A DNA stretch of 64,000 nt. Origin: a virus. Shown here in pieces: positions 21,250 to 55,337 of this stretch. The notes below the pieces were generated by a model. It worked only from the letters and a program-made list of their open reading frames with translations, did not search any database and was not told the origin of the DNA. A program made the position numbers and the translations under genes. The stretch's first letter is position 1. Every line of letters begins with the position of its first letter. The DNA is taken from the IMG/VR virus record IMGVR_UViG_3300023179_000046, positions 38,990 to 102,989 of that record. One strand, 5' to 3'.

Positions 21250-21273
21250 CGCTAGTTTAGTTTAAGGAGAGAT

Positions 21274-21489
21274 ATGCCTAAATGTTTTGATTGTAATAAT
21301 GTTACAATGTTTGAATTTTCTACTACACAATGGGATACAGTTTACTTTGACCCCGAGGGATTTATCGTTGACACCAAGAGGCTCTATAAGGTAGACTCAT
21401 TCCTACCGCCCACCTGTGGGCGGTGTGAAAGTACGAATATTGATGCCACATTCCTTGATGCTGCACTATTGGAGGTAGAAGATGAATGA
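21274..21489 (+). CDS. Zinc-ribbon-like small protein
   Basis: 71 residues with CFDC at the N-terminus and CGRC in the C-terminal half, a two-knuckle pattern. AAGGAG precedes the ATG. Eight-base overlap with the next gene. Confidence 0.75.
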   Translation: MPKCFDCNNVTMFEFSTTQWDTVYFDPEGFIVDTKRLYKVDSFLPPTCGRCESTNIDATFLDAALLEVEDE

Positions 21490-21826: not shown

Positions 21827-21859
21827 TACTATTAGACACCATCGACACTAGGAGGCAGT

Positions 21860-22192
21860 ATGGCTAGGACCACGGAAGATAAGGTAGCCAAGTATCTGAT
21901 TGACGGATGCGCGGATTCTCGTCTCAACGAGGTTGCGTTGGCTCACACTATGGGGAGGCAGGCGTATGACGTACAGGCGCGGTTCTGGAACACTCTGGTT
22001 TCTTACATTTACTTTCATGCTCACAATTATGAGCATGGTCTATTTGACGAAGGTACATATGAGATTGCTAGATTGTCTAAGAAGATCAAGGACTTAGCGT
22101 TTGCTGATGAGCGTAAGTATTCCTCTGATCCCGTTCATGAACGGTATGGAGATTTTGAGTTGCAAGATGGTCAATTGCGTCAAGGGTTTTAA
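21860..22192 (+). CDS. Hypothetical helical protein
   Basis: 110 residues, AGGAGG before the ATG. Helical, His/Tyr-rich middle (FWNTLVSYIYFHAHNYEHGL). No recognised domain. Confidence 0.74.
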   Translation: MARTTEDKVAKYLIDGCADSRLNEVALAHTMGRQAYDVQARFWNTLVSYIYFHAHNYEHGLFDEGTYEIARLSKKIKDLAFADERKYSSDPVHERYGDFELQDGQLRQGF

Positions 22193-30897: not shown

Positions 30898-31188
30898 CTA
30901 AGACCTCTTTCTCGGAATGTAAGTCTCTCCATTAAGTTCACAAGGAACATTGTATGAACGAATAACATCTCTAACCATAATTAGATAAGACATAATGGCT
31001 TCTCTCTGAGAGTCACTATACTCTAAAATGTTTTCTTCGTAAACGGTAACCGCCAAAAAGTTTGGTAGACCCTTGATGTCCATAACTAGGCCTTTAACTG
31101 GCTGCTTAATTCTTCTAACAGCCGCCGCCATATTAAGATTATAAACAATTCTACCAGTCTGTTCTGGCTTATAGTTGCCCTCGTCCAT
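30898..31188 (-). CDS. Hypothetical small protein
   Basis: 96 residues with a beta-strand core (GLVMDIKGLPNFLAVTVYEE) and helical C-terminal part. Overlaps the end of the WhiB gene by 20 bases. Function unknown. Confidence 0.72.
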   Translation of the reverse strand: MDEGNYKPEQTGRIVYNLNMAAAVRRIKQPVKGLVMDIKGLPNFLAVTVYEENILEYSDSQREAIMSYLIMVRDVIRSYNVPCELNGETYIPRKRS

Positions 31189-31489
31189 GTATCTTCCTCA
31201 ATTTCTTCCAAGTATCCTCAGTCTTATGAGAATTCTGATCCTTGTCTATTCTACCCAAGTTTAAATATACCCCGCCCCAAACACCAAACTCTTTACCTTT
31301 AATGCCTTCTTGGAGACAGAATTTAGCAACGGGGCAGGTAGAACAAATAGAATCTACCTGCTGAGCATGTACCTTATTAGATTCATAGTCATCATAAAAC
31401 CAATTGACTGACATATTCTTACAACTAGCAAGTTGATACCACGCAACGTGATCTTCTTCTAGCCCTAAGTTTTCTAATGAATCACTCAT
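31169..31489 (-). CDS. whiB: WhiB-family Fe-S regulator, second copy
   Basis: 106 residues. Cys pattern ASC, then ICSTCPVAKFC, then GKEFGVWGGVYLNLGRID, the WhiB cluster and G-x-W-G-G turn that contacts sigma-A region 4. N-terminal HVAWYQLASCKNMSVNWFYD also fits. Only distantly related to the copy at 16132, so the two likely have different targets or timing. ATGA overlap with the gene upstream. Confidence 0.9.
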   Translation of the reverse strand: MSDSLENLGLEEDHVAWYQLASCKNMSVNWFYDDYESNKVHAQQVDSICSTCPVAKFCLQEGIKGKEFGVWGGVYLNLGRIDKDQNSHKTEDTWKKLRKIHGRGQL

Positions 31490-36633: not shown

Positions 36634-36926
36634 TAGTTTGGTCCCAATCCAATAGAGTTTTTATAGTTAACAACATTAACTGCATGAACAATGTCCTCAG
36701 CAGTCAATTCTTTTTGCTGCCGTATAAATATTTCTTGCAAATAGGTTAGGGAAAGAGCGACCCATTTTAAAACCATGTAAGCAATAAGTAGTAGGACGGG
36801 AAGATACGGAATATTACGATTGTATACTTCCATGACAAAGCCTACGGGGACGGCAACATAAACAAAACTACGAATAAATATTTGAGTTGCATACCCAAAA
36901 TAGTAAGCAATATCACTCATCTTCAT
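36633..36926 (-). CDS. Membrane protein, two helices
   Basis: 97 residues with two hydrophobic stretches (SFVYVAVPVGFVMEVY and LPVLLLIAYMVLKWVALSLT) and a short polar tail. TAATG and ATGA overlaps on both sides couple it to the Ntn hydrolase and glycosyltransferase genes. Function unknown; a holin is one possibility. Confidence 0.7.
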   Translation of the reverse strand: MKMSDIAYYFGYATQIFIRSFVYVAVPVGFVMEVYNRNIPYLPVLLLIAYMVLKWVALSLTYLQEIFIRQQKELTAEDIVHAVNVVNYKNSIGLGPN

Positions 36927-38062
36927 TTGTTTAACCTGCTTCTCTTGTTATTCTTAACAATCTTCTCAATAGTCTCTAACCATAGCGGTGCAACGTTAAC
37001 AATATTATACTTGTCAGAAACTAATTCGTATCCACGATCCGCTTGTTCTTTACGATAGGACGGATCAATAAGTTTTTCCATATGATTAATCCAATGACGA
37101 GCCTTAGTTGCAGTATTACCCGCCCCCTCAGATTCTAACTTCTTGTACTCATAAGAACCATAGGCAACGAAGGGGATGCCAGACATAGCGTACTCTAACC
37201 CCTTTAGATTACTCTTAGCCTCATTAAATGGCAAAGAGTTAAGAGGAACAATACCAATGTCCATAGGGAGAAGCAAGTTGCCATAATATTGTGCGCTAGA
37301 GCCAGTAGTCCCCGTCAATCTTTCAGGATCAATCTTAGCAATCCTAGCAAATTCTTTAGGATCTTGTGGATTAATACCTGCATGATGAAAACGAAGGTCA
37401 TGGCGGTCCAAGAACGGCCCTAGCCAGCCCTGTAATTCCTCAATGTCACCAGAACGCCACACCATAATACCAACCCATCCCACAGTGGGCTTAACGCCAG
37501 CAGAATCCCAACGCTTAACAAAATGTTTAGGGTCAATCGAATTATAAACTTGATAGCAATTCTCATTCTTTTTAGAATAGAAATCATTAAGAAACTTAGT
37601 GCTTGTAATTAAACCATCACAATAACGATATGAGGCAAGCATATGGTTTCTATTCCATGTAGCGTCTCTATCGGGGTGGGTAGTTTGAAAAGCAATATTG
37701 GTAGTAGGAAGTCCATCAAACCAGTCATCAACATCAAAAATGATAGTTTGACCTAGTTTTTGGGCCTTCTCGAAATACTCCTTGGCCTCATGCCACATCC
37801 AAAGTTTAAAAATTACGACATCTATGCCGCCAGAGTATTCCTTAGGATTAATAATCGGTCCACGACTATTTGTTTTTAATCTTTCTACTGTTGGTACAGC
37901 AACGAATCCTTCATCGTCCCGCCAACCAACTTCACCAATAACTGTGTCTAACCCTAATTTATTTAACTGCTCGGAAGGACCAAAGCATCTGATCCAAGTA
38001 CAACCTCCCGGCTGTGATGAAACATAATCGCCCCAATCCGAACTGAGAAAGGCTACCTTCAT
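36923..38062 (-). CDS. GT-B glycosyltransferase
   Basis: 379 residues from the ATG at 38062 (a GTG lies three codons upstream). TIIFDVDDWFDGLP, LITSTKFLNDFYSKK, YNSIDPKHFVKRWDSAGVKP, VGWVGIMVWRSGDIEELQGW and a late KSNLKGLEYAMSGIPFVAYG block form a group 1-type glycosyltransferase. Substrate unknown. One of several glycosyltransferases in this window. Confidence 0.82.
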   Translation of the reverse strand: MKVAFLSSDWGDYVSSQPGGCTWIRCFGPSEQLNKLGLDTVIGEVGWRDDEGFVAVPTVERLKTNSRGPIINPKEYSGGIDVVIFKLWMWHEAKEYFEKAQKLGQTIIFDVDDWFDGLPTTNIAFQTTHPDRDATWNRNHMLASYRYCDGLITSTKFLNDFYSKKNENCYQVYNSIDPKHFVKRWDSAGVKPTVGWVGIMVWRSGDIEELQGWLGPFLDRHDLRFHHAGINPQDPKEFARIAKIDPERLTGTTGSSAQYYGNLLLPMDIGIVPLNSLPFNEAKSNLKGLEYAMSGIPFVAYGSYEYKKLESEGAGNTATKARHWINHMEKLIDPSYRKEQADRGYELVSDKYNIVNVAPLWLETIEKIVKNNKRSRLNK

Positions 38063-38097
38063 ACTACCCACCCTTAAAATAGAAAAGAACTACTTAC

Positions 38098-41351: not shown

Positions 41352-44261
41352 CTATAAAACCGTAAAATTGTCAACAAAATTCATACCATCATCTTCATAT
41401 CCAGAGTTAAAATAGTCCCTCAAAGACTCTGGCATACCCTCTGATCTATGAGGTAACTCTATCACATGAGGATTTTTAGCCGCAAACGTTTCTTCCTCAT
41501 AGTCGTCATAAGAATCATAAGTGTGAATCCTAATTTCACGATCAAGGTCGGGGGGTGTCAGACTTATAGCATTATAGATAGCCCCGCAGGTAGCGTCAGC
41601 CAAGTCCTTAGAACCCGTCCTTGGGTGGTCAACCTTATCCTTAACAATTCTGAGTTTTAGCAACTCATTAATTAGAATGTCATTGTGTGGACCGTTAACT
41701 CTTTCTTCCATGACAACAAGAGCCATATCCTCATAATGTTTCTTAGCGACAGAAAGAATTTCACAATTCATTCCATAAGCCTTTAGTTGCTGCATCATAT
41801 CGTGAGAATTCCAACGGTCAAAAGTCACCCGCCCAATATTAAAACCACGTTGCTGCAAAGAAATAATATAGTTTTTAACCTCTGTAAAGTCTACGCTCTT
41901 GTCAGACTTAGGTGTCCACCATCTGATAGCATCGACTATTACGAACGGGGCAGCCTCAGATACTTGATCGCCAACCTTAATATGCTTCCATTCCTCAACG
42001 TGAGCCATAGTCACCGCACAGCGGTCGTGCTTTTGTGCAAGGTCAACATGGACATAATAAATCTTGCCGGGTAGGGGATTAAACCATTCTTGGAATCTCC
42101 ACTGTTCATCAAGATTGGGGTTAAGGTTAGAGAAGGCCTTCTCAATCTTCTCCCGCGATTTAAAAAATGCATCTACCGAATCGGGGGGCATACACGCAAA
42201 ACGGCTTAGAGCATCCGTAGGGTCCGTAAAGAACGCTAACGTAAAGTCCTCTATCTTTCTAGTGGGATTAATTTCCCACGTTGGCCTTTTAAGAGCAAAG
42301 ACACGGGGCCGGGAGTAGGCTTGAATATGATCTTCTTCCCACTCAATAGAAAACAAATTACTCTCTATGTCATCAGGCAAGTCAGGATCAATCTTAAAGG
42401 TATGAGTCCTAACTATGACCTCTTTAGTGTCAACTACTTCCTCATACCTACGCTGAATATAGTCACCCTTGTAGCGCGGGAAAGAAAGCAAGACAACCTT
42501 ACCATAGTCAGGGAATCGTGAATCAACAGAGCCGCGATACATCTTATAGATAGCGTCTGCGGTTTTAGCGTTTTCGTTTCCAGAAGTAGTCTCTATATCG
42601 AAACCTGAAATTTCGTCAAGGATGACGAGGATGACGTTGTAGCCCTCCCATGATTCTCTCTGAGAGTGTCCTGAGTGTACGGTAATAGCCTTATCAAATT
42701 CAATAGAAGTGGCCTTTGAATCGTACCGGCCTTGGAACCAAGGGCAGCGCACAATAAGGTTTTTGAAACCTTTAAAGAACACACGGTTAGCCTGCACAGC
42801 GTTAATAGCAATATTGATAATGTCAATAGCGTCACCGGGCGGCTTGCCGTAATATTTAGCAGGATCTTTTAGACACAACAATAAATAAACTATATAGCAG
42901 CAGGCGATGGTTGATACAAAGTCCTTGCCTGAATTTGCAGAAATCATCCCATTACCAACAAAGTTACCAGTGTCGGGTACAGTTAATGTCCAATAATCAC
43001 CAACGCCTATTTTCTCAATAGACACTATTTTGTCATAATATAAATTATTTTCTATTCTTTTATATACCCTACCTTGTTTTTTATCTATAGAAACATTTTT
43101 ATGGTCTAGTAGACTAATAACATTAAAAAATTTATCTATACATTCTTGGCTAGACACAGTAACATATCCCGCCTCTGATGCATTATCAAAATTTGATTTA
43201 GGAGTTCTAAATCTTATTCCAGCAGGGACGCCTATTCTAAGCAGAGCGCGTTGCACATCAATACAAAGTTGCCTAGAAATAGACACAAATTCCGCAGTTG
43301 TACCATTCTTTTTGTATACGCAACCATCTGTTTGCCACAATTTAGATAGGGTAGCCGCGAGGACATTGTTGTCTGAGTTCCACACGGCATCCGGTATTTT
43401 TTTGTTGCCTGAACGAAAATTTATCATCCCATACTGGACTGCAAGCGCGACAGCATTTGACTTTGTTCCATGCCTAAAGAATGTAAGATTTTTTGTCTTG
43501 TGTGTGGTTTTGGTTGGCTCATCACCGATAAACTTACAAAGTTCTTCGTATCTTTTAATGCTTTCTACTTCATCCGAACAAAAATCCATATTGATAATCA
43601 TGTTATGTTCAGCAGGCAGCATCCCGTCACCAAGCCAATATCCAATAAGTTCAGCATGTTCAATGGGAATATTTTTTGGATTAACAACATCTAGGCCTAA
43701 GCCTAAGGCAATTCTATCTCCAACATTAAGTTTATTTATAGTCTCATAGGAAGGACTATATCCACGGTGTCTTTTATAAAATTTAGATTTTTTGTAAGAT
43801 AGATATTTATGTTCAACAAATACATCTTCTTCCCATCCCAAGGAAGTCTTAACCCTGACCATATCCCCCGTGCCAACCTTAAATGCTTCCGTGGCATAAT
43901 GAACAATACCATCATCTGAAATAACAGAACCATCTGCCACAACCTCATCTAGACGATTCCAATTGCCAGTAAGAGGATTATATATCGGAGTATAGGGTGC
44001 GTTACACCCTTTACCAAGTTGGAAAATAATCTCATTACGAGTCTCAGTATATTTACGAGAACCTTCTTCCTCCCCGTAAAGTTTAATTAAAGTTTCTTTC
44101 TTATAAATTTGAGACATAGCCTTAATCATCTGGAACTGATAATCAGAAAGAGGCGGGAGCGACAAGAATTCCTTAGACATTACGAATTCTTCAATTAGTA
44201 CTGGCTTTTCCTCAAACTCATCACCATCAAGAAGGCCAAGGAAGTCATCAAATTCGCTCAA
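41352..44261 (-). CDS. terL: Terminase large subunit with intein in the P-loop
   Basis: 969 residues. Motor ATPase and nuclease that packages DNA. N-extein ends QLGKG; C-extein begins SGKDF, so splicing restores the Walker A motif GKGSGKD. The Walker B region is VILVILDEISGFD. The nuclease-domain residues include YVHVDLAQKHDRCAV and the late DLADATCGAIYNA. The intein spans residues 86-443 (358 aa): it starts Cys-Asn, contains two LAGLIDADG motifs (LIGYWLGDGML and LSKLWQTDGCV) and ends Ser-Ala-Asn before Ser+1. The usual penultimate His is Ala. Confidence 0.93.
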   Translation of the reverse strand: MSEFDDFLGLLDGDEFEEKPVLIEEFVMSKEFLSLPPLSDYQFQMIKAMSQIYKKETLIKLYGEEEGSRKYTETRNEIIFQLGKGCNAPYTPIYNPLTGNWNRLDEVVADGSVISDDGIVHYATEAFKVGTGDMVRVKTSLGWEEDVFVEHKYLSYKKSKFYKRHRGYSPSYETINKLNVGDRIALGLGLDVVNPKNIPIEHAELIGYWLGDGMLPAEHNMIINMDFCSDEVESIKRYEELCKFIGDEPTKTTHKTKNLTFFRHGTKSNAVALAVQYGMINFRSGNKKIPDAVWNSDNNVLAATLSKLWQTDGCVYKKNGTTAEFVSISRQLCIDVQRALLRIGVPAGIRFRTPKSNFDNASEAGYVTVSSQECIDKFFNVISLLDHKNVSIDKKQGRVYKRIENNLYYDKIVSIEKIGVGDYWTLTVPDTGNFVGNGMISANSGKDFVSTIACCYIVYLLLCLKDPAKYYGKPPGDAIDIINIAINAVQANRVFFKGFKNLIVRCPWFQGRYDSKATSIEFDKAITVHSGHSQRESWEGYNVILVILDEISGFDIETTSGNENAKTADAIYKMYRGSVDSRFPDYGKVVLLSFPRYKGDYIQRRYEEVVDTKEVIVRTHTFKIDPDLPDDIESNLFSIEWEEDHIQAYSRPRVFALKRPTWEINPTRKIEDFTLAFFTDPTDALSRFACMPPDSVDAFFKSREKIEKAFSNLNPNLDEQWRFQEWFNPLPGKIYYVHVDLAQKHDRCAVTMAHVEEWKHIKVGDQVSEAAPFVIVDAIRWWTPKSDKSVDFTEVKNYIISLQQRGFNIGRVTFDRWNSHDMMQQLKAYGMNCEILSVAKKHYEDMALVVMEERVNGPHNDILINELLKLRIVKDKVDHPRTGSKDLADATCGAIYNAISLTPPDLDREIRIHTYDSYDDYEEETFAAKNPHVIELPHRSEGMPESLRDYFNSGYEDDGMNFVDNFTVL

Positions 44262-45237: not shown

Positions 45238-45633
45238 TTATCTCCAATTGTCACGCAATGCTATCTTATATAGTACCAGATAGCCTATCAAATCGTCAAT
45301 GGTATCCTCACCCTGATACTCATGGCCTTTCTTTATTCTGTTTAGTTTGTCATCAATGCGAGTAGAAATTTGGTCTAACGCTGATGATTTAGCAAAAACA
45401 TTAGATGGCTCTAAAGCAGAGTTGCCATAGGCGCGGTTCTTCTCAATCAATAAATTTTTAATATCATCACATACAGTAACAATTTCTCTTTCAGTATTAT
45501 TTCTGAGAGGTTCGTCATTAATATAAATATTATCTAATTTAGTTGCATCGAAATACTTTTTATTGATAGGATTAATGTTTCTAATTCTATCAGGATTAGA
45601 TACGTTAGAATCCATGAGCGGATTAGAGTCCAT
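45238..45633 (-). CDS. DUF1599/Nmad1-like protein
   Basis: 131 residues. LLIEKNRAYGNSALEPSNVF, RIDDKLNRIKKGHEYQGEDT and DDLIGYLVLYK match DUF1599 (nucleotide-modification-associated domain 1), linked by others to modified-base biology in phages. It overlaps the end of the GMP reductase-like gene. Confidence 0.8.
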   Translation of the reverse strand: MDSNPLMDSNVSNPDRIRNINPINKKYFDATKLDNIYINDEPLRNNTEREIVTVCDDIKNLLIEKNRAYGNSALEPSNVFAKSSALDQISTRIDDKLNRIKKGHEYQGEDTIDDLIGYLVLYKIALRDNWR

Positions 45634-46663
45634 GAGCGTTACTCTCCTTTACACTGTTAGTTGTTACCTTAATGAATTCTGAAAAAAGTTGCAAGTCAGA
45701 CAGAGAATAGGTTCCAGAATAGGAGCAGCCGCTTGAAATTCCGGCGCGGAATTTGTCAAGAGTATCACCAAGACTACCCCTTAACAATTTCTCAGTAGAA
45801 ACACCCTCAACATAATTAGTTTTACCATAAGCCTTCTGTACTTCCTCGCTAGCCATACCACGAACCACCTTGTACGATTTACCGTCACGCTCCACAACCT
45901 TGCCGGGAGACTCATTATGAGCAGCGAGAGCATTACCTAGCATGACCGCATCAGCACCGGCAGCAAACGCCTTTGTAGCGTCACCAGAATTTCTAATACC
46001 ACCATCAGCAATAATAGACGTGGGGAGATTTAAACGCTCCTGCATTTCGTATACCTCCATGATAGAGGACAACGTAGGCATCCCATGACCAGTAGCAATA
46101 CGAGTAGTACACATACTACCGCCGCCAATACCCACCCTAATAGAGTCTGCGCCTGCGGCAGAAAGGGCTAAAAATCCATCCCAAGTAGAAACATTACCAG
46201 ACATAATGTGAACGTCTGGAAAGGCCCGCCTAATTTCTCTCACAGTGTTAACAGTCAAAACATTATGACCATTGGCAGCATCAACAAGAATAACCCTTGC
46301 ACCAGAAATAATTAAAGACTCAACCTTAGGCAATACAGATTGTGTGTTTGAAACACCAACGGCCGCCCCAACCATAAACTTTCTAGAAGCAACCTCGTTA
46401 ACATGCCAATTCTGCTCAGCGTCCTTAGCAAAACGATGAATTATGCCAAGGCCTCCGTACTGTGCCATAACTAAAGCAGCATCACTCTCACACACAGTAT
46501 CCATCGGGGCGGCGATGATCGGTAAATATAAATCAATCTTTCTGCTATCAAACCCAATAGACATCGACAAGTCAACGTCCCTACGACTAATTACATCAGA
46601 AGCCTTCGGGACTAATAGAATATCATCAAAGCATATGTTACTTTGCGTGTTATATAATTTCAT
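45623..46663 (-). CDS. IMP dehydrogenase/GMP reductase family enzyme
   Basis: 346 residues from the ATG at 46663. The catalytic Cys loop [19 protein letters not shown] (C185) and the size without CBS domains fit GMP reductase better than IMP dehydrogenase (GMP reductase Cys is at about 186). Further motifs: [40 protein letters not shown] and YRGMASEE-like [16 protein letters not shown]. Converts GMP to IMP or the reverse branch, shifting purine pools; it may feed a modified base. Confidence 0.86.
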
Positions 46664-46665
46664 GT

Positions 46666-47343
46666 TTACCAATCCTTTAGGGTTAAGTTTGGATCATTGA
46701 AAGGGGTTGAGAATTTTTCTTCTCCCGGCATACCGCCCCATTTTTTAACATAATATAATCTATTTTCTTCAAATTTGGCTGGCTTGACTGCCCAATTATC
46801 TATAATGTTGTTTTTATTAGGATTTTGAGTTGCCGAGCCATGATGAAAAATCTTTGCATCAGTATTAATTTTAATAGTAAGGCCTGCTAACTCTATGCGA
46901 CGCCTCATATCATTGTCCTCAAAGTAGGCGGGATAAAAATTTTCATCAAAATATCCGCATTTGAGAATTAATTTATTTAAATTAACCGCAAAACACGCAA
47001 ATGGCGAGAAGTACACATCGCTATGGGTTTCATTAATCAAGCCGTTGTTTTCTCTATCTTCAATCTGATCTGCGCCTATAACAACGTGTTCATTCATAGC
47101 AATACTATCATGTAATTTTTTAATTGTGTCTTTTCTAAAAACTACATCATCGTTGGATATGATTGCATAATCAAATTTATTTTTTTTTGCTATAACCATT
47201 CCATTATTCCATGCTGATGATACTCCACGATTATCATTCCAATTGTCCATAATGATAGGATGAATCGGATAGTCTACAGAATGAATTAATTCTGTAAAAA
47301 GATCAAATCTTTTTAACACAGGAACAATTAGAGCAACAGTCAT
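46666..47343 (-). CDS. GT2-family glycosyltransferase
   Basis: 225 residues from the ATG at 47343, which overlaps the stop of the small upstream gene (ATGA). N-terminal VALIVPVLKRFDLFTELIHS, then YAIISNDDVVF (donor-metal motif), HSDVYFSPFACFAVN and FEDNDMRRRIELAGL (acceptor/catalytic motif) define a GT-A inverting transferase. Substrate unknown. Confidence 0.85.
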   Translation of the reverse strand: MTVALIVPVLKRFDLFTELIHSVDYPIHPIIMDNWNDNRGVSSAWNNGMVIAKKNKFDYAIISNDDVVFRKDTIKKLHDSIAMNEHVVIGADQIEDRENNGLINETHSDVYFSPFACFAVNLNKLILKCGYFDENFYPAYFEDNDMRRRIELAGLTIKINTDAKIFHHGSATQNPNKNNIIDNWAVKPAKFEENRLYYVKKWGGMPGEEKFSTPFNDPNLTLKDW

Positions 47344-47441
47344 TGAATATTTAACCATTCTGGACGTTTAAGAGTCCACTTGACTGTTCCTTCAAGAGAT
47401 TTCTTTAGCGGTACCGGCAGAATCCAGCCAGTTTCAGTCAT
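47340..47441 (-). CDS. Small gene between two glycosyltransferase genes
   Basis: 33 residues (MTETGWILPVPLKKSLEGTV then KWTLKRPEWLNIQ), overlapping its neighbours at both ends (eight bases with the gene upstream, ATGA with the GT2 gene). The tight coupling supports a real gene, but it has no recognisable domain. Confidence 0.5.
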   Translation of the reverse strand: MTETGWILPVPLKKSLEGTVKWTLKRPEWLNIQ

Positions 47442-48336
47442 TTGTTTTATTCATTCCTTTATTTATTATTTCTTCACGAACAATTCTACCGACTTCCCAT
47501 TCGTCATAAGTGCTAGAAAAAATAATTTTATTTCTATGGCTGACACCTGTATGTGGAGACAACTCAATATTTGCCAACAAGACAATCATAGTTTTATTTC
47601 CACAATTAAAATTGTATCTAGTCATTGCAAATGTACCGGGGCCACTACAATTAGTAACAATGATTTTGCATCCCTCAGAGATTTTAGCAACTTCTGGTAA
47701 AGGGTTATACCCGCAATTTTCAAAATTAGTCATATCGTTGGTATAAAAAATATTTTCTTTTTCTATCCCAATGCTTTGAGTACAAATAAAATTTACATTT
47801 TGAAATTCTTCTGCCAAACTTAAAATTGCACCCGGCATAGAATTTATTAAAGTCTGCCCCGACCACGGAGTACTATTGGCAAAAAATACAGAGTTGGGCG
47901 GCGCTTTATCATACTTCCCTAACATTTTACTAGTAATGTTTGGTACAGTTAACTCTGGATTGACAATACATTCTAAATGAAATCCAGTCTCTCTTTCTAT
48001 ATGATCTGCTATTGATTTCCACATGGGTATTTGATTTACAAAATTATGGTTACCACCGTCACCACCAATAAGTCTATGGTGTCCGACCCAGATATTAATG
48101 TAAAAAGTACTCTCGCCTTCATCCCAAAAAGAGGGGGGGTTTGACATAAGTCTAGGCCAATTAGTAATATGCTCAGACTTTAATCTGTCAATATTTACGA
48201 TGTGTGGGTCTCGTGAAGTAACTGCAACACACTCTATTCCAGATTTATCAAATTGTAAAAAGAAATTTTCAATAAAAGATTTGGCTAGGTGCCAATCTCC
48301 ATGATGCCATGAACAATAGAATACTACGCGCTTCAA
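47434..48336 (-). CDS. Putative glycosyltransferase-like protein
   Basis: 300 residues. The layout (LAKSFIENFFLQFDKSGIEC, FYINIWVGHHRLIGGDGGNH, ILSLAEEFQNVNFICTQSIG, GCKIIVTNCSGPGTFAMTR) resembles a GT-B fold acting in the sugar cluster, but no family signature is complete. Co-transcribed with the cupin and GT2 genes. Confidence 0.55.
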   Translation of the reverse strand: MKRVVFYCSWHHGDWHLAKSFIENFFLQFDKSGIECVAVTSRDPHIVNIDRLKSEHITNWPRLMSNPPSFWDEGESTFYINIWVGHHRLIGGDGGNHNFVNQIPMWKSIADHIERETGFHLECIVNPELTVPNITSKMLGKYDKAPPNSVFFANSTPWSGQTLINSMPGAILSLAEEFQNVNFICTQSIGIEKENIFYTNDMTNFENCGYNPLPEVAKISEGCKIIVTNCSGPGTFAMTRYNFNCGNKTMIVLLANIELSPHTGVSHRNKIIFSSTYDEWEVGRIVREEIINKGMNKTND

Positions 48337-48690
48337 CTAATCTCCCTTGATTATTCTATAACTATCATCATCAAAGTGTTGAGTAGAAAATTCAAACACT
48401 CTAGAGTTTTCTATACCAACAAGCATGTGCTTTAGGCCGGGGGGAACATTAAAAATCATACCGGGCTTTAAAACAATAGAACTAGAATTTTCTAAATAAT
48501 TGGACTCTCCATAGTACAGACAAACTTTACCAGTTTCAACATAAAAAGTTTCATCCTTTATTTTATGAAAATGCCAAGACATTTTTTTGTCCTTGTTTAT
48601 ATGAAGAATCTTTGCACAATACTTATTTGTATTTGTAAGGACTTCTTCATACCCCCATCCTTTATCAATGAAGCATTGCTCTACAATCAT
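48337..48690 (-). CDS. Cupin, sugar-phosphate isomerase type
   Basis: 117 residues: GWGYEEVLTNTNKYCAKIL, MSWHFHKIKDETFYVETGKV (His-x-His and Glu) and VPPGLKHMLVG (last His) form one cupin barrel with metal ligands. Similar to the mannose-6-phosphate-isomerase-like cupins of sugar-nucleotide clusters. Confidence 0.8.
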   Translation of the reverse strand: MIVEQCFIDKGWGYEEVLTNTNKYCAKILHINKDKKMSWHFHKIKDETFYVETGKVCLYYGESNYLENSSSIVLKPGMIFNVPPGLKHMLVGIENSRVFEFSTQHFDDDSYRIIKGD

Positions 48691-49007
48691 GACTCTCCAA
48701 AAAAATCTGTGTCTTTAATTGCCTTATCGTCCACATATACATCTGCACTAGGCTTGCCTAAAATCAATTCATGATACTTGCATCCCCACTCAAACAACTG
48801 AGATTCTGTAAGCCCTCTAAACATTATATCAGCAGCATCAGAATTATCCTTTAGCCTGCCCATGCCCCTAGCAGTATGATACACAATTACATTACCCTCA
48901 TCGTACAATTTATTTATTTGACTAATCCTGCTCATAATAGGGCTAGAGAGTTTATAATCATTAAATGAATTACATATAGTTCCATCAATGTCGAATACAT
49001 ATTTCAT
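48687..49007 (-). CDS. HAD-type phosphatase
   Basis: 106 residues: FDIDGTICNS (nucleophile Asp motif), VIVYHTARG (motif II Thr) and GKPSADVYVDDKA (Asp/Lys motifs). In the heptose pathway a HAD phosphatase (GmhB-like) removes the 7-phosphate. It overlaps the cupin gene by four bases. Confidence 0.78.
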   Translation of the reverse strand: MKYVFDIDGTICNSFNDYKLSSPIMSRISQINKLYDEGNVIVYHTARGMGRLKDNSDAADIMFRGLTESQLFEWGCKYHELILGKPSADVYVDDKAIKDTDFFGES

Positions 49008-49009
49008 TT

Positions 49010-49399
49010 TTATTCTTCTTTTAAAATTTTTGTTGTGGAGTAATCACCGATTCTATTAAAAAAAATATTTTTACAAAACGAATTAATCTCTGGGCGGGGT
49101 TTATCTTTCCAGTCCGACCCCATTAACCACCACTCAGGACGTTCAAGATTTAAAATATTTTCTAGATCCACTTCATCCTTAAACGAAACAACCTTGTCTA
49201 CATAACGAATAGAACTTAATACTTCCATTCGATCCTCTAGATTATTAAAAGGCCTAGAGTTACCTTTTTTACTTTTAATTCGATCATCTTCATCTATGGC
49301 AATGATAAAATAATCACACATAGACCTACCATATTTAATAATTTCTATATGGCCCCTATGTATAATATCAAAAGAGCCAGTCATAAAACCTTTAATCAT
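49010..49399 (-). CDS. Nucleotidyltransferase (HldE C-terminal / RfaE2-like)
   Basis: 129 residues: MTGSFDIIHRGHIEIIKYGR with the HxGH-type motif (HRGH), RPFNNLEDRMEVLSSIRYVD, and TKILKEE at the end. Cytidylyltransferase-fold enzymes that activate heptose-1-phosphate or glycerol-3-phosphate; the neighbours favour heptose. Confidence 0.82.
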   Translation of the reverse strand: MIKGFMTGSFDIIHRGHIEIIKYGRSMCDYFIIAIDEDDRIKSKKGNSRPFNNLEDRMEVLSSIRYVDKVVSFKDEVDLENILNLERPEWWLMGSDWKDKPRPEINSFCKNIFFNRIGDYSTTKILKEE

Positions 49400-50171
49400 T
49401 TATATACCCTTCTACGGTAATAAAATTTTTGTAATCAAATTCTTGCTTTGCACAAGTATATTTTTGATATTTACTTTTTAAAATTTTAGGAAAATCTATA
49501 AATTTAATGTCCGCATTATATTTATTGGCTACAGATTCCGCAACAGATTGAAAGGATACTGGCTGACCAGTCCCGAGGTCAAAAATGCCTGAATCATTCT
49601 GATTGTTTAAAACTATTTCTACAAGATCACTTACACAAATAAAATCTCTATAAAAATTTTGGGAGCCTTTAAATAATTTAATAACTCCGGTGTCCCTAGA
49701 CTGCCAGACGAATTTGCTGACCGGGCTTGCCTGCTCAGCCTTATGTTCTTCATTGTTTCCGTACACATTAAAATATCTAAACCCTTGTATTTTTGAAAAT
49801 TTATCAATATTGTCTAAAACCCAATAATCTATTTGAAGTTTAGAGATAGCATATTGATTCAACGGGTTAAAACATTTATCTTCATTGCCATATACAGATG
49901 CAGAAGATGCATATTTTACGGGAATACCAAACTCTATTGCTTTGTTGAATAACTCTAAAGTAAAATATACATTAAATTTATTTATTTTTTGTATATCGGT
50001 TTCCGTAGTAGAAGATATTGCACCCTGATGAATAATTAAATCTACTTCATCCCAATTGTTAAAATTTTTAATAAAATCTAAACAATCATCAATTTCTACT
50101 TCTAAAACATCATTTAAATATTTTTTAAAATGACTACCTATAAAGCCTTTGGACCCCGTAAGAATTATCAA
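49392..50171 (-). CDS. hldD: NAD-dependent epimerase, HldD-like
   Basis: 259 residues from a TTG at 50171 overlapping the upstream stop (TTGA); the protein then begins MIILTGSKGFIGSHF, a normal epimerase start. IIHQGAISSTTETD, Y-x3-K-like NQYAISKLQIDYWVLD and YFNVYGNNEEHKAEQASPVS are characteristic of ADP-L-glycero-D-manno-heptose-6-epimerase. A longer TTG start at 50183 exists. Confidence 0.82.
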   Translation of the reverse strand: MIILTGSKGFIGSHFKKYLNDVLEVEIDDCLDFIKNFNNWDEVDLIIHQGAISSTTETDIQKINKFNVYFTLELFNKAIEFGIPVKYASSASVYGNEDKCFNPLNQYAISKLQIDYWVLDNIDKFSKIQGFRYFNVYGNNEEHKAEQASPVSKFVWQSRDTGVIKLFKGSQNFYRDFICVSDLVEIVLNNQNDSGIFDLGTGQPVSFQSVAESVANKYNADIKFIDFPKILKSKYQKYTCAKQEFDYKNFITVEGYIND

Positions 50172-50881
50172 ACTTCTTCCCAATCATTAATATCTATTTC
50201 TGTCACAAGTCGCCCACCGCGAGTGTGGGTGTCATATAGAGACTTGTTAGAGGATGGATAGACGTATGACCATTCAGGCTTTTCATAACCAAAAAAATCT
50301 AAAACTTCATCCTTAATGGCAATCATATCATCAACATGAACCCAAACTACAGAAAATCCAAAACTTTCAAATAATTTTTTAAACGCTAGCGGGGACGCCC
50401 CGTACCATGCGCTACCGTCCCAATTCCAATTATCGTCATATTTTAAAGTATAACTTTCATCTGGTTCAAATCTGACGTTTGTTTCGACCATAACTACCCT
50501 TGGCCTATATTTTTCTAAAACTGATTTTAAAATCCAATAATCCATTCCGTCCAAATCTACACATAAAAAATCAAATTCTTCTGGAACAGAGTATTGATTG
50601 AATAGATCACAAACATTGTCCTTGCTAATTCTTTTAATGTATAAATTGATATCTTTATTCTCCAGATATTGGGTGTCCCCCTCTAGCAAGAGGCCAGTCC
50701 AACCATCTCTCTCCCGAAGAAAAGAAACATTAGAGAGATGAAACCCATCAGTTGCACCAAGATCAACGTAGTACTTATTTGTATATCCAATTTTGTCAAA
50801 GGTGGCCTGTATAAAGGCATCCTGTCCCTTTTGAGAATTCATAATAACACTTGGAACAATCTCATGGTAATTTAATTTCAT
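50168..50881 (-). CDS. FkbM-like methyltransferase
   Basis: 237 residues: YYVDLGATDGFHLSNVSFLR (SAM-binding), WTGLLLEGDTQYLE, EEFDFLCVDLDGMDYWILKS (DLDG motif) and RPRVVMVETNV fit FkbM-type sugar O-methyltransferases. Coupled to the epimerase gene, so it likely methylates the finished heptose or glycan. Confidence 0.82.
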   Translation of the reverse strand: MKLNYHEIVPSVIMNSQKGQDAFIQATFDKIGYTNKYYVDLGATDGFHLSNVSFLRERDGWTGLLLEGDTQYLENKDINLYIKRISKDNVCDLFNQYSVPEEFDFLCVDLDGMDYWILKSVLEKYRPRVVMVETNVRFEPDESYTLKYDDNWNWDGSAWYGASPLAFKKLFESFGFSVVWVHVDDMIAIKDEVLDFFGYEKPEWSYVYPSSNKSLYDTHTRGGRLVTEIDINDWEEV

Positions 50882-51603
50882 ATTGTTGTTACCCCTTTAT
50901 GCTTAACGACTTCTGTTGCACATGAATTAGCGTACATAATGCTTTTCTCTATATCTTTAGTATTTAAAAAATCAATTGCAAGAGCGGAGATGAATGTATC
51001 CCCCGCGCCGCTGGAATCTTTTACGTCTACCTTTTCCGTATAGTATTGTTTACCCTGATATATGCATCCATCAGAGCCAACCGTTCTGATGATTTTATTG
51101 ATTAATTTATCAGAGAATGGTTCTGATTTTTTGTATTCGTGATTATTTATTTTAATAAATTTTGCATCTCCTGCCCAATCTCCCAAAAATTTTTTTGTAT
51201 CTAGAAAAACTGTGGGATGCCTCTGACATATTTCTTTAATGTCAGACTCAGTTAGAAAACCTTTGTCGTAGTCTGAAATAACAATAATGTCACAATTATA
51301 ATCAATTTTTGATAGATCTATTCTATTGACAGGTTTTTCTTCATCGACCCGAAAAAACATATGATTGCTTTCCCAATGCATATAACGAATTTTTACATTT
51401 TCTTTCCAATTATCATTAGTAATAATTTTTACATCAGAAACTTTGACTGATATGTTATTAAAAACATTCATTGCCATGCCAGAGTTACTGGTATTTTTTT
51501 GAATTCTTAGAACTGGAACTGGTACATCTGGAGCCAGTCGTAGCGCATCACAATAAACAAATTTATCTACACAACTTTCTCCTATTACCGTTATCTTTGT
51601 CAT
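50878..51603 (-). CDS. hldE: PfkB-family kinase, HldE N-terminal (heptose-7-P kinase)-like
   Basis: 241 residues: GESCVDKFVYCDALRLAPDV, SNSGMAMNVFNNIS, ISDYDKGFLTESD, and DVKDSSGAGDTFISALAIDF (catalytic GAGD). In bacteria HldE joins this kinase to the nucleotidyltransferase; here they are separate genes. Ends overlap with neighbours (ATGA). Confidence 0.82.
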   Translation of the reverse strand: MTKITVIGESCVDKFVYCDALRLAPDVPVPVLRIQKNTSNSGMAMNVFNNISVKVSDVKIITNDNWKENVKIRYMHWESNHMFFRVDEEKPVNRIDLSKIDYNCDIIVISDYDKGFLTESDIKEICQRHPTVFLDTKKFLGDWAGDAKFIKINNHEYKKSEPFSDKLINKIIRTVGSDGCIYQGKQYYTEKVDVKDSSGAGDTFISALAIDFLNTKDIEKSIMYANSCATEVVKHKGVTTI

Positions 51604-52808
51604 TAGTATCTTGATTTTCTTTCTATTACAATGACTGGCCTCTCACTATTTACCGCTCCACGAAAGGCAGAAAGAATATCTTTGCCATCCACAGGGTCAA
51701 TCACCGGAAAACTTACAGCCTCACGCAACATCTTGGTAAAATCTTGAGAATGAGTAATTCCAGAATAAAATGGCCCTGCATCAGCGGTTACTGCGCGAAT
51801 AACAATAGGAACCTTATATTCTCCATGAGAAATTCTTTCAATCTTATCAATATGATTTACAATGGCATCCATAGCGACGAGGATAAAGTCGTGCCTTTCA
51901 AAATAAATGACAGGAAGGAACCCTTCAAATGACATACCAATGGCTAGGCCAGACATTAAATTTTCTGCTACGGGCGTTTCTAACTTTTGATCGCTTGAAA
52001 CATTTTTTAGTGTTCCCATCGCATCGCCGCGCGCCACATTATATCCAATAAAAATTGCACCTTGATTGCCAAGTTCTGTCATTGCAACCTCTACAGCATT
52101 TTTATAAGACAATTGACTTTCTTCATCGCTTATCTCAAAACTCCAGTCCTTATCCGTCAGGAGTGGAAAATATTCTTCGTCTGTTTTTTTAGTAGCCTTG
52201 GATAAATCAATCATACCCGGTTTCCGTGCATGAGGATAGGTAATCTCATAATGGTACTTGATAACGTGTGGAGAGTTCCATTCGTATTCAGCAGCCTTCC
52301 CCCAACGTTCTTCATTCGTAGACTCAACAGACCTATTATTGTTTTCGATAATAAATGTTACAGGTAGATCAAATCCCTCTGCATACCTGACTGCCTCATA
52401 GGTATGACCATTGTCCTCTGTGCCATCACCAATAAAACACCAAACTTTTTGCTTGGAGCCTTTTCTTTTAAGTGCCCAAGCAATGCCTGCGGCAATAGCG
52501 GGCGTACCACCAATGATTGCGGAACAGAAAAAATTTCTTTCCCTGTCATATATGAACATGCTTCTTCCATTAAGAATTCTATCCTCTACAACTTCGGGCG
52601 GAATTCCATGAAGCAATGCATGATAATGGCTTCTATGATTAGAAATAACATAGTCACCCGGCTTGATTTCCTTAAAAATATCAATTAACTCATCTTCATT
52701 ACCACAAGAAAGATGAAAAAGGAAAGGCAACTTATTATCTAAGTAAAGTTCACCAATATGGTTTTCAAATTCTATTAAATCTTCCTTTGTCCAATCGCGC
52801 TTATCCAT
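51603..52808 (-). CDS. Transketolase/dehydrogenase-E1-like TPP enzyme
   Basis: 401 residues. A thiamine-diphosphate half (FIGDGTEDNGHTYEAVRYAE ... FIIENNNRSVES, GDG-to-NN motif) is followed by a pyrimidine-binding half (LMSGLAIGMSFEGFLPVIYF, PIVIRAVTADAGPFYSG). Short and fused, compared with the usual two-chain E1 or 650-residue transketolase. Within a heptose operon it may make or transfer a two-carbon unit to form a C7 sugar; this is inference. Confidence 0.78.
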   Translation of the reverse strand: MDKRDWTKEDLIEFENHIGELYLDNKLPFLFHLSCGNEDELIDIFKEIKPGDYVISNHRSHYHALLHGIPPEVVEDRILNGRSMFIYDRERNFFCSAIIGGTPAIAAGIAWALKRKGSKQKVWCFIGDGTEDNGHTYEAVRYAEGFDLPVTFIIENNNRSVESTNEERWGKAAEYEWNSPHVIKYHYEITYPHARKPGMIDLSKATKKTDEEYFPLLTDKDWSFEISDEESQLSYKNAVEVAMTELGNQGAIFIGYNVARGDAMGTLKNVSSDQKLETPVAENLMSGLAIGMSFEGFLPVIYFERHDFILVAMDAIVNHIDKIERISHGEYKVPIVIRAVTADAGPFYSGITHSQDFTKMLREAVSFPVIDPVDGKDILSAFRGAVNSERPVIVIERKSRY

Positions 52809-53790
52809 TATGCATCCTAATCATAATCCTACCTGCTGTGCCATTTTGCAACAGATCAAATGCTTTGTTGACGTCATCTAAATTAAACCTATGAGTAACA
52901 ACATTCATGTTAAAACTACTATTTTTTTTCAAATACCTAGGAATATCCCTTTCAGGGATGAACCCGCCGCCTTGACTTGCCTTTATCATTTTACCACTAC
53001 CGTCAAAAAAACTTAAGCCATCGTCTAAATAAATTTTTTCATCTGGATCTGGCTGGCCCACTAGAATCAATCTTCCTCCACCATTAAGACTGCTAAATGC
53101 TTTATTTATTACATTGGGGCGACCAGTGGTATCAATAATCACATCCCATTTTCTATCAAACTCAGTGATAAAATTTACCCCCAAGGAGTTTACGAGACTC
53201 ATTTTATTTTTGTTTATATCTAGACCAGTGGGAATTCCCCCTGCAAATAGGACAGCCTGAATAATATTCAGCCCCACACCGCCACAACCAATGACTAAAA
53301 CTTCCTGACCAATAGACACTTGGGCTTCATTTTCTACAACACCTAGGGAAGTAGACAGCCCACACCCAAGTAATGCACCAAACTCTGGATCTGTATTTTC
53401 TGGAACCTTAGTGATTCTATTTTCTGACACAATAGAAAATTCGCTTAAAGTGGTTACTTTACCGCTGCTCATGGCCTTGCCATTATAGACGTATGAGGGA
53501 AAATCAGACTCAATTCCAAGACCGGGCCTCCAGTGCATAATTACGTTATCCCCGACCCTCACAGTTGTAACACCATCCCCAACTTCTTGAACTATTCCGT
53601 AACCTTCGTGTCCTAGCAGGTGGGGTAAGAATTTTTTGTTACCTTTGTTTCCCTTTATCTCATGAAGTTGTGACCCACAGATTCCACTAACAATATTTTT
53701 TACTAACACTTGACCATATTTTAATTCTCCAAGTTCCACATCGGCAACTTGTAACAAAGAATTTAATTCTCTTAAAACTACTGCTCTCAT
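52801..53790 (-). CDS. Zinc-type (MDR) alcohol/sorbitol dehydrogenase-like
   Basis: 329 residues: SGICGSQLHEIKG, LLGHEGYGIVQEVGDGVTTV (zinc and GHE motif), VGDNVIMHW, VLVIGCGGVGLNIIQAVLFA (NAD Rossmann) and GTAGRIMIRM. Probably acts on a sugar or polyol in the same pathway. Overlaps the TPP-enzyme gene. Confidence 0.85.
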   Translation of the reverse strand: MRAVVLRELNSLLQVADVELGELKYGQVLVKNIVSGICGSQLHEIKGNKGNKKFLPHLLGHEGYGIVQEVGDGVTTVRVGDNVIMHWRPGLGIESDFPSYVYNGKAMSSGKVTTLSEFSIVSENRITKVPENTDPEFGALLGCGLSTSLGVVENEAQVSIGQEVLVIGCGGVGLNIIQAVLFAGGIPTGLDINKNKMSLVNSLGVNFITEFDRKWDVIIDTTGRPNVINKAFSSLNGGGRLILVGQPDPDEKIYLDDGLSFFDGSGKMIKASQGGGFIPERDIPRYLKKNSSFNMNVVTHRFNLDDVNKAFDLLQNGTAGRIMIRMHNG

Positions 53791-54620
53791 ATAAAATCCT
53801 TTATGTGTTCTAGTCTAAGTTCGTATGGACTTAAATTATAAAATTTATCAAAATTAAAATTTAAATCTTGATGGCGTATGTTTATAAAAACATTACATTT
53901 TTTTAGTGCTAATTCATTTACTGAAACTAGAAATGGAGAAGTGGGTATCCCAACCACTACTTTACATTTTGTAGCCAAACGTCCGATATCTACAATATTC
54001 ATTTTTTTATCAGTGGTGCATGGAAATCCATTTATTTTATAAGTAGTAATAAATTTTATTCCATGTAACCTTAATAAATTTGCTAAATTTAAAAAATAAT
54101 TATCTTGCTCTTGCTCAGACCAATGTGTTTGACTACTCCTTGCATAACTATTAACTAGTAGCACGTCGTAGCCTAAAAAATTATTTTCAAATACGTCCCC
54201 ATCAAAAACAACATCTTCTAATGTTTTATATGGCAATTGTAGATTAAGAGTTTCTGCTACATAATTACCAGATTCAAACATCATTTCAAAAATATTTTGT
54301 TTATTGGGAAAACCATGTATTCCCCCGTGTAATTCATTTAAAGGCTTTATTCTCATAAGATGAGGTAGTATGCCGTGCATCCAAAGACCGTTTGCTTCTG
54401 GGTGTTCGTAATTACTAATTTTTATTTTTTTTTCTAATTTTATAAAATCATTTAGGGCTGCAATTGAATCACCAACATATGAAAAATCAGAAGAATATTC
54501 ACATTCAATTTCTTCGTTGGCCCTACAAAGTTTTTTTAAAAAATCTAAAGAAAAAAGGTTGTCCCCTATGTGAGTGGGCACCCCGCCGCCGGGACCAAAA
54601 TAATTAAAATAATACTTCAT
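53787..54620 (-). CDS. Putative GT-B glycosyltransferase-like protein
   Basis: 277 residues. GVPTHIGDNLFSLDFLKKLC, VLLVNSYARSSQTHWSEQ, TTYKINGFPCTTDKKMNIVD, VVVGIPTSPFLVSVNELALK resemble GT9-like heptosyltransferases in overall order, but the match is loose. Coupled to the dehydrogenase gene and to a small HTH gene (ATGA). Confidence 0.6.
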   Translation of the reverse strand: MKYYFNYFGPGGGVPTHIGDNLFSLDFLKKLCRANEEIECEYSSDFSYVGDSIAALNDFIKLEKKIKISNYEHPEANGLWMHGILPHLMRIKPLNELHGGIHGFPNKQNIFEMMFESGNYVAETLNLQLPYKTLEDVVFDGDVFENNFLGYDVLLVNSYARSSQTHWSEQEQDNYFLNLANLLRLHGIKFITTYKINGFPCTTDKKMNIVDIGRLATKCKVVVGIPTSPFLVSVNELALKKCNVFINIRHQDLNFNFDKFYNLSPYELRLEHIKDFI

Positions 54621-54763
54621 TGCCTTATAAAACCCGCCTTAGTTAAGGCTCTTTGAATAGTCATATGACTACAACCTGCCTCTTTAGCAATCTCAATTAT
54701 ATTCTTCTTCTCAACAACATATCTCTGATACAGCCAAATCCTAGACTGATAAAGTTTACTCAC
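54617..54763 (-). CDS. Small helix-turn-helix protein
   Basis: 48 residues from a GTG: VVEKKNIIEIAKEAGCSHMT then IQRALTKAGFI is a resolvase-type helix-turn-helix. It overlaps the RuvC-like gene's end (eight bases) and the next gene (ATGA). Probably a DNA-binding regulator or recombination partner. Confidence 0.68.
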   Translation of the reverse strand: MSKLYQSRIWLYQRYVVEKKNIIEIAKEAGCSHMTIQRALTKAGFIRQ

Positions 54764-55337
54764 GGATATTTTGCCTCGTTAAATTATTAACCGCATAGTA
54801 ACTTATACCAGCGGCATCTGCAACATTGTCAGACTTAGTTATTATACCTTTACCGGCCATAAAAAGTAAAGTCCGTTCCTTACGCAAAGTTCTAATCTTA
54901 TTACTATACCAAGTTTTACTTTTACCGGGATACTCCCGGTACACTTCCTCTTTCTCAGCCTTATTAAAATTCTTATTACCAATAAAACTTTGCCAAGTTA
55001 CAGGATGAACCTCAACAACCTTAATGCCGTCATCTAACACCTCACCCATAATAGCCCCAAAGATGTATGCCATTTTAATTCCCGTGGCCGCAGAGCGCAC
55101 CATGACGCCCGCCTCAATAGCCATAAAGTCAACATCGAAGAATCCTATCTTCCTCAAAGCAGACATTTTTCTTTTAGCATCTAGGATGCGCTCGTAAACG
55201 TCACCACCATCAAAAAATATTTCACCATAACTTTCAACATCATCACCGTTGAAAATGCAAAAAGCGACGCTATGCGTACTAGCGTCGATCCCTAAAACTC
55301 TTTTTGCAGGTGTCTTATTTAACTTAGCCAACGACAT
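54756..55337 (-). CDS. RuvC-like Holliday junction resolvase
   Basis: 193 residues: VLGIDASTHSVAFCIFNG (first Asp), DFMAIEAGVMVRSAATGIK (Glu), VVEVHPVTWQSFIGN, and TKSDNVADAAGISYYAVNN (last Asp) form the RNase H-fold active site. Resolves or debranches DNA for packaging. Confidence 0.85.
   Translation of the reverse strand: MSLAKLNKTPAKRVLGIDASTHSVAFCIFNGDDVESYGEIFFDGGDVYERILDAKRKMSALRKIGFFDVDFMAIEAGVMVRSAATGIKMAYIFGAIMGEVLDDGIKVVEVHPVTWQSFIGNKNFNKAEKEEVYREYPGKSKTWYSNKIRTLRKERTLLFMAGKGIITKSDNVADAAGISYYAVNNLTRQNIRE

Follow-up and report, generated by a model that had tools for sequence, protein, structure and literature searches.

How might a phage make a heptose-type sugar when GmhA, the isomerase of the bacterial heptose route, is missing? 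The question is raised by an operon at positions 46666-54620 of a 64-kb stretch of viral DNA (hereafter the window; bases 38990-102989 of IMG/VR record IMGVR_UViG_3300023179_000046, which totals 102,989 bases). The operon consists of 11 minus-strand open reading frames (ORFs), transcribed from 54620 to 46666 and all present in the window. In the order of transcription, they encode a WaaC-fold glycosyltransferase, a zinc alcohol dehydrogenase (ADH), a fused thiamine pyrophosphate (TPP) enzyme, an HldE-type kinase, an FkbM-like methyltransferase, an HldD-like epimerase, an HldE2-like nucleotidyltransferase, a HAD phosphatase, a cupin, a protein without a family match and a GT2-like glycosyltransferase. 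The original prediction, made from the sequence, described a tightly packed operon of nucleotide-heptose and glycan genes without GmhA and proposed that the TPP enzyme supplies the C7 sugar instead. The 11 ORFs were verified, and their junctions range from 16-bp overlaps to 2-bp gaps, with one 75-bp gap as the single exception. The role given to the TPP enzyme did not survive. With moderate confidence, we read the operon as a mobile phage cassette whose enzymes build an activated heptose-type sugar and attach it; in this reading the cupin, and not the TPP enzyme, acts as GmhA, and the ADH and the TPP enzyme form a sub-module.

In the pathway that we propose, host sedoheptulose 7-phosphate would be converted by the cupin isomerase to D-glycero-D-manno-heptose 7-phosphate, which the PfkB kinase would phosphorylate to the 1,7-bisphosphate and the HAD phosphatase would convert to the 1-phosphate. 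The nucleotidyltransferase would then form NDP-heptose, and the HldD-like 6-epimerase would turn it into NDP-L-glycero-D-manno-heptose. Sugars would finally be transferred by the WaaC-fold and GT2-like enzymes. The ADH and the TPP enzyme would work with a special kinase subfamily, most likely in forming or modifying a carbon-carbon bond, for example by two-carbon addition followed by reduction, and the end product could be either a derivative of heptose or a sugar with a longer chain. The functions of all operon genes are predicted from sequence and structure, and from these we infer the substrates, the nucleotide, the order of the steps and the acceptor.

The heptose-type core and its glycosyltransferases

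Gene content, conservation, motifs, folds and gene partnerships were established directly, as was the absence of GmhA. The search in relatives that the original prediction had suggested found the same gene order in some 15 further viral contigs, as well as in the cyanophages P-TIM68 and S-SM2; therefore, the grouping is far beyond chance. The closest copy of the module lies on contig L004 (83% identity for the TPP enzyme and 78% for HldD), and no DNA-level similarity of the operon region to named phages was found.

Four enzymes of the predicted heptose route are encoded by separate genes, and family searches agree with the assignments made originally. The kinase (50878-51603) is a short PfkB protein resembling the HldE N-domain and HldA (TIGR02198, 3.5e-28; best PDB match Burkholderia HldA, 4e84). 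Its GAGD motif (residues 199-202) is conserved among homologs, and HldE is still its best match at 98.6 of the 345 bits of the curated score. The epimerase (49392-50183) matches TIGR02197 (1.9e-61; 208 bits against a curated cut-off of 274.6) and E. coli HldD (1eq2, 4.7e-39). Its residues Y111, K115 and K148 align with Y140, K144 and K178 of E. coli HldD and are at least 93% conserved in 38 homologs; Y111 and K148 thus coincide with Tyr140 and Lys178, the known catalytic pair of the E. coli enzyme. The nucleotidyltransferase (49010-49399; PF01467, 1.6e-17; TIGR02199, 2.2e-25) is nearest to HldE domain II, its best match although it scores 89.2 of 181.5 bits, and the HxGH motif (H14, G16, H17) is conserved among its homologs.

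The HAD protein (48687-49007) is of the EcbF/BcbF type (TIGR01689, 1.9e-9; best PDB match the capsule biosynthesis protein 9iqw, 9.4e-13), and no GmhB match was obtained for it in family or PDB searches. Residues D6, D8, T45, K85 and D93 are conserved among homologs, and we propose that the protein would act as a sugar bisphosphate phosphatase. The isomerase function given to this family in PHROGs and GenBank is ruled out by the HAD motifs and by the matches to capsule phosphatase-like proteins. The label 'phosphoheptose isomerase' appears to be a propagated misannotation of HAD phosphatases in phrog_1238, P-SSM2 PSSM2_311, S-SM2 SSM2_207/210 and P-TIM68 AIR93532.1.

The first gene of the operon (53787-54620) adds a candidate for the transfer step. 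Its AlphaFold model (pLDDT 79, pTM 0.81) was compared with the PDB by Foldseek, and the top six matches were E. coli WaaC (best 2e-7, probability 1.00). Further matches were to a Veillonella GT9 protein, WaaF and TibC, and all of the top eight belonged to GT9. The global TM-scores against GT9 structures are modest (0.53-0.58), probably owing to domain orientation. The GT9 fold is thus recognised by structure, and no sequence-family match was obtained in Pfam or by profile search of the PDB and of solved GT9 sequences. Relatives of the gene occur upstream of the TPP gene in L004, L009, L011 and L040-L042. WaaC (heptosyltransferase I) transfers L-glycero-D-manno-heptose from ADP, and on the predicted similarities the epimerase and the WaaC-fold transferase would both point to heptose.

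The original prediction of several glycosyltransferases holds for two genes, the WaaC-fold gene and a GT2-like gene (46666-47358; phrog_29879 galactosyl transferase, 2.1e-26; PF00535, 3.1e-4, under the cut-off), homologs of which occupy the same hotspot in related phages. A third gene (47434-48336) is linked to this group through profile comparison only: hhalign aligned it to the WaaC-fold family (93.6%, E 2.1e-7), and it is possibly a second GT9-like glycosyltransferase. Family searches with it gave zero matches and a viral scan found no relative, while a 36% identical homolog is present in the related phage contig L123. The dehydrogenase, fused TPP enzyme, cupin and FkbM methyltransferase had also been named correctly, the last on a weak match (50168-50881; PF05050, 3.9e-4, under the cut-off). 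The methyltransferase is an optional member of the module, and its homologs lie inside the same module in S-SM2, L009, L016 and L026.

The cupin as candidate isomerase

No match to GmhA (SIS_2) was found in the whole 103-kb record, in agreement with the original prediction. Nor was SIS_2/GmhA found above the curated cut-off in sets of 24, 14 and 26 viral records (0 in each); a weak SIS_2 match of 18 bits occurred in SynMITS9220M01. Control genomes gave positive SIS_2 matches, and the named cyanophages are complete genomes.

The remaining steps of the heptose route each have a candidate gene, so that the cupin (48337-48690) fits the sole empty slot. When its AlphaFold model (pLDDT 95.9) was searched against 350,542 PDB chains with Foldseek, ranks 1-6 were D-lyxose isomerases (best 3.7e-10), among them a structure with bound fructose and another with mannose; the top 21 matches also contained Z5688, a sugar isomerase of E. 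coli, and cupin phosphomannose isomerases from archaea. The metal ligands H40, H42, E47 and H88 are conserved, and the protein thus has the fold, the HxH/E/H metal site and the nearest structures of a D-lyxose/mannose-type cupin isomerase. At 19 bits it misses the gathering score of Pfam Lyx_isomer (20.8 bits), a domain detected weakly in 15 of the 22 members of the cupin family. D-lyxose and mannose-6-phosphate isomerases interconvert ketoses and 2-epimers of manno/lyxo configuration, which is the stereochemistry of GmhA. In addition, when kinase and cupin were searched for independently, all 31 kinase-bearing phage records also carried the cupin. On this sequence and model evidence, the cupin probably performs the isomerase step of GmhA. 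In the phages Bellamy and SynMITS9220M01, the cupin is instead found together with a GHMP kinase and an NTP_transferase, an arrangement that recalls the GDP-heptose route. This suggests that the cupin goes with two types of sugar activation while no GmhA lies next to it. No paper on a cupin heptose isomerase was found in the literature searched.

The labels 'cysteine dioxygenase' and 'nucleotidyltransferase' attached to phrog_7851, PSSM2_312 and their relatives appear to be wrong, these proteins being D-lyxose-isomerase-like cupins.

The ADH-TPP sub-module

The TPP enzyme (51603-52808) joins an E1-alpha-like pyrophosphate (PP) domain to an E1-beta-like pyrimidine (PYR) domain (PF00676, 8.5e-19; PF02779, 4.3e-11). 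Its best PDB matches are the beta and alpha subunits of human pyruvate dehydrogenase (PDH) E1, and its cofactor and catalytic residues G127-D128-G129, E282 and H353 are invariant in 14 homologs. These matches and the lack of a C-terminal domain set it apart from transketolases. It does not qualify as a PDH E1 either, since the protein stops after the PYR domain and the operon contains no E2 or E3 gene. The neighbouring ADH (52801-53790; PF08240/PF00107) is a zinc-type medium-chain enzyme whose C38, H61 and E62 are conserved in 30 homologs.

Among 44 fetched TPP loci, the ADH was adjacent or close in 30, and 29 of these 30 also had the kinase, which was present in none of the 14 loci without ADH. 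Conversely, 41 fetched loci carried the kinase without a TPP gene. When TPP and non-TPP labels were placed on the gene trees, label changes numbered 4 for the kinase against 21 after shuffling, 6 against 12.5 for HldD, 5 against 14.8 for the nucleotidyltransferase, 8 against 11.2 for the HAD protein and 10 against 11.9 for the cupin. This suggests that the TPP-linked kinases mostly belong to one subfamily, which includes the kinase of the window. From the same counts, the cupin appears to be exchangeable between TPP and non-TPP cassettes and the kinase not, a pattern that is suggestive only, because near-copies inflate label clustering on trees of short proteins and because the resolution of the cupin tree is poor.

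Several of the 14 TPP loci without ADH show a second partnership: by our reading of the sequences, radical SAM proteins take the place of ADH and kinase there (L011, 6665-11206; L023, 8902-11206; L034-L043). L011 and L023 are viral contigs, and the other loci belong to genomes of archaea and bacteria; the TPP protein may be split or fused, and most of the cellular genomes have it as two genes.

E1-like TPP pairs have been proposed to add a two-carbon (acetyl) branch, followed by ketoreduction, in the biosynthesis of avilamycin, paulomycin and everninomicin (PMC4753412, PMC10338323), and the ADH-TPP pair may likewise make a modified or longer sugar. This precedent also serves the strongest alternative to our reading, namely that the ADH and the TPP enzyme build another higher-carbon or branched sugar, by C8 extension or by a two-carbon branch, and that this sugar is the substrate of the kinase, the phosphatase, the nucleotidyltransferase and the epimerase, no true heptose being formed. 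ADH, TPP enzyme and kinase are the most constant trio and the kinase subfamily is TPP-specific. Moreover, an enzyme that has lost the C-terminal domain of E1-beta and lacks E2/E3 partners would seem to be a carboligase and not part of an oxidative complex. The lincomycin route, which uses a transaldolase and a nucleotidyltransferase toward GDP-octose, offers a further parallel (PMC12945683). However, the epimerase and the glycosyltransferase best match heptose-specific enzymes, and the core occurs without the TPP gene in many phages; we therefore regard the alternative as possible but unlikely. The same holds for a broader version, in which a phage-mobilised pathway spread over actinophages, cyanophages and sporadic cellular genomes has an E1-type TPP carboligase and the zinc ADH build an undescribed higher-carbon or branched sugar, which the cupin would isomerise in the place of GmhA, heptose-type enzymes would activate and the WaaC-fold enzyme would attach to the virion or cell surface.

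Alternative sources of the heptose phosphate

The cupin might have another role, such as a later epimerisation, with heptose 7-phosphate supplied by host enzymes. The same cupin family occurs outside the cassette, alone in the cassette-free phages L104, L109 and L113 and beside thymidylate synthase in L104 and L109, and Prochlorococcus single-cell genomes with ADH-TPP own a GmhA. By contrast, no GmhA was found in a freshwater actinobacterial metagenome-assembled genome (MAG; completeness not stated) that carries the whole cassette in the order NT-cupin-ADH-TPP-kinase-HldD-HAD (NT, nucleotidyltransferase); the one SIS_2 gene of this MAG belongs to a GlcNAc-type operon. The nearest structures of the cupin, moreover, are isomerases of sugars or sugar phosphates acting on lyxo/manno substrates. 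This role for the cupin is rather improbable.

That a transketolase-like TPP enzyme supplies the C7 sugar in the place of GmhA, as first proposed, drew on the absence of GmhA, to which can be added that in many loci the kinase gene comes immediately after that of the TPP enzyme. The GmhA step, however, is a ketose-to-aldose isomerisation, which lies outside transketolase chemistry: a transketolase yields a ketose where an aldose is needed, and the domains are PDH-E1-like in any case. The 41 kinase loci without TPP point the same way, as a search of the entire records of those tested among them found no GmhA. Furthermore, TPP relatives stand beside GmhA: in Prochlorococcus AG-402-G06, ADH-TPP adjoins a full set of GmhA, HldE, HldD and GmhB; two further Prochlorococcus loci have the same GmhA-heptose neighbourhood beside ADH-TPP; and in a Pacearchaeota cluster GmhA and an HldE-like fusion occur together with a TPP pair. 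With the cupin as a better isomerase candidate, chemistry and co-occurrence speak against the TPP enzyme as a substitute for GmhA, and we consider this first proposal very unlikely.

Several points weigh against the cassette that we favour, in which the cupin takes the GmhA step. None of the operon enzymes reaches an NCBIfam equivalog cut-off, so that all must be regarded as divergent relatives of known families. CapF, quercetinases and KdgF also score well against the cupin structure; cupins are a versatile fold family, and the copies in cassette-free phages have been mentioned above, together with the limits of the trees. Many IMG/VR records are fragments, and GmhA could be encoded elsewhere or be supplied by the host. 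L005-L007 and Patescibacteria have ADH, TPP enzyme and kinase with no cupin, nucleotidyltransferase or HAD gene nearby, and the sub-module may feed another pathway. Finally, the TPP step in our scheme is a guess from precedent.

Destination of the sugar

A glycan of the host surface or of the virion would fit the neighbouring glycan genes, and the sugar is probably added to surface glycans, either on the virion fibres or on the actinobacterial host. In P-SSM2, S-CAM1 and S-CAM3, the core adjoins tail-fibre or structural genes. Modification of the phage DNA would accord with the position of the operon between recombination and terminase genes, and glucosylated DNA does occur in other phages, but the operon has no base-modification gene, relatives carry ordinary glycan genes at the same site and the cyanophage copies lie beside tail-fibre genes, which makes this destination highly improbable. 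Capsid glycosylation has been reported in actinophages (Che8, cited in PMC11256854), and the lipopolysaccharide (LPS) genes of cyanophages have been proposed to alter the host surface and thereby exclude other phages (PMC2984593).

In the fibre-like proteins of the phage (L050; G000:C1:6030-11925), Ser and Thr together make up 24-30% of residues against a median of 13%, and these could be acceptors of O-linked sugars. Two more glycosyltransferase-like genes lie outside the operon (8281-9303 and 36923-38071; phrog_2170 and phrog_7162).

The virus, its host and the cargo hotspot

The host is very probably an actinobacterium, as the original prediction had assumed, and presumably a freshwater one. 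The terminase shares about 62% identity with its counterparts in the Streptomyces phages Gilson and Kenrey (Stanwilliamsviridae), and the DnaE gene matches Streptomyces phages at the DNA level. A WhiB-like protein is encoded at 31169-31489 (minus strand); WhiB-like genes are typical of actinobacteria and their phages, and contig L004 also encodes one (5367-5663, read from the translation).

The operon occupies a cargo hotspot (45238-54755, minus strand) between RuvC (54756-55337) and MazG (45238-45633)/TerS/TerL. Relatives of the phage always have RuvC-[variable]-MazG-TerS-TerL in this order, and the contents of the hotspot in the contigs inspected are mostly glycosyltransferases, short-chain dehydrogenase/reductase (SDR) epimerases, nucleotidyltransferases and methyltransferases. 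Constant flanks with variable glycan contents indicate that the operon is swappable glycan cargo. RuvC and MazG are 199-2868 bases apart (median 970) in the 49 relatives in which both flanks are present; at about 9.1 kb, the interval in this phage is the largest seen. The GC content of the operon (34.6%) is below that of its flanks (40-41%), suggesting recent acquisition. Downstream, a gene for an IMP dehydrogenase/GMP reductase-like (GuaB) protein (45623-46672, minus strand; phrog_9582 'dehydrogenase', 6.6e-93) overlaps the operon by 7 bp, so that the transcription unit probably continues into it. The GuaB-like gene is found at the same place in the relatives L123, L125, L127 and L148.

Elsewhere in the window, the TerL gene (41352-44261) contains an intein-like insert of about 370 residues, and relatives match only on both sides of it. 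At 10000-22000 the GC content is 46-53%, whereas most of the remaining sequence is at about 40%; this region holds short plus-strand ORFs, a tRNA-Leu and, at 17216-17269, a weaker tRNA-like match.

Comparison with known systems

As a common host trait the cassette is ruled out, since scans for the TPP gene returned a single genome per taxon, each time the one already known: 1 of 251 genomes for the order to which the actinobacterial MAG belongs, 1 of 380 for the phylum of a Kaiserbacteria MAG and 1 of 251 for the Prochlorococcus family. A chromosomal copy of the module is present in the MAG record L025 (CAMDBB010000002.1; TPP 77%). This record is titled Bifidobacterium breve; by our own reading, its gene content resembles a small freshwater actinobacterium and it is likely mislabelled.

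Should the cupin prove to be a sedoheptulose-7-phosphate isomerase, it would be a non-homologous replacement of GmhA that completes the heptose pathway in many marine and freshwater phages, and two standing misannotations would be corrected, those of the HAD protein as 'phosphoheptose isomerase' and of the cupin as 'nucleotidyltransferase/cysteine dioxygenase'. A heptose-type cassette in viruses of LPS-free bacteria implies that such sugars decorate virions, tail fibres or actinobacterial wall glycan, and the ADH-TPP pair is a likely sign of new sugar chemistry. Related genes in cultured cyanophages and Streptomyces phages make the question accessible to experiment. The core and its ADH-TPP extension are already present in sequenced cyanophages, and no interpretation of them was found in the literature searched. 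New here are the occurrence in an actinophage within a conserved cargo hotspot, the proposal of the cupin for GmhA, the WaaC-fold transferase, the ADH-TPP-kinase sub-module set apart and the two annotation corrections.

The NT-kinase-HAD-cupin-HldD core is found in P-SSM2 (T4-GC 304-308), S-SSM7, S-CAM1, S-CAM3 and others, and in many IMG/VR contigs. This cyanophage 'LPS' cassette has the same five core genes and no GmhA; in the window, all five lie in one operon and are homologous to those of P-SSM2. The cyanophage cassette differs in lacking ADH and TPP enzyme and in belonging to cyanobacterial myoviruses, and its HAD and cupin genes bear the labels questioned above. P-TIM68 and S-SM2 have the extended cassette, ADH-TPP-kinase-epimerase-NT-HAD-cupin, with TPP enzymes 73% and 61% identical to that of the window; however, they belong to an unrelated phage family with a different host, and their gene clusters are bigger. 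In the Streptomyces phage Gilson, the RuvC-TerL region holds two glycosyltransferases and an HldE-like nucleotidyltransferase, whereas kinase, TPP enzyme, cupin and HldD are not annotated there. The AviB1/AviB2-type enzymes resemble the sub-module as E1-alpha/E1-beta-like TPP proteins that act with a reductase in sugar biosynthesis (PMC4753412, PMC10338323), a likeness at the level of domain make-up; they are proposed to have two subunits and belong to antibiotic clusters, whereas the phage enzyme is a single chain without the C-terminal domain. With the bacterial ADP-L-glycero-D-manno-heptose pathway (GmhA, HldE, GmhB, HldD, WaaC), the operon shares the kinase, nucleotidyltransferase and epimerase classes and the heptosyltransferase fold; it departs from that pathway in the proposed use of a cupin for GmhA, in an EcbF-type phosphatase instead of GmhB, in separate kinase and nucleotidyltransferase genes, and in the additional ADH and TPP enzyme.

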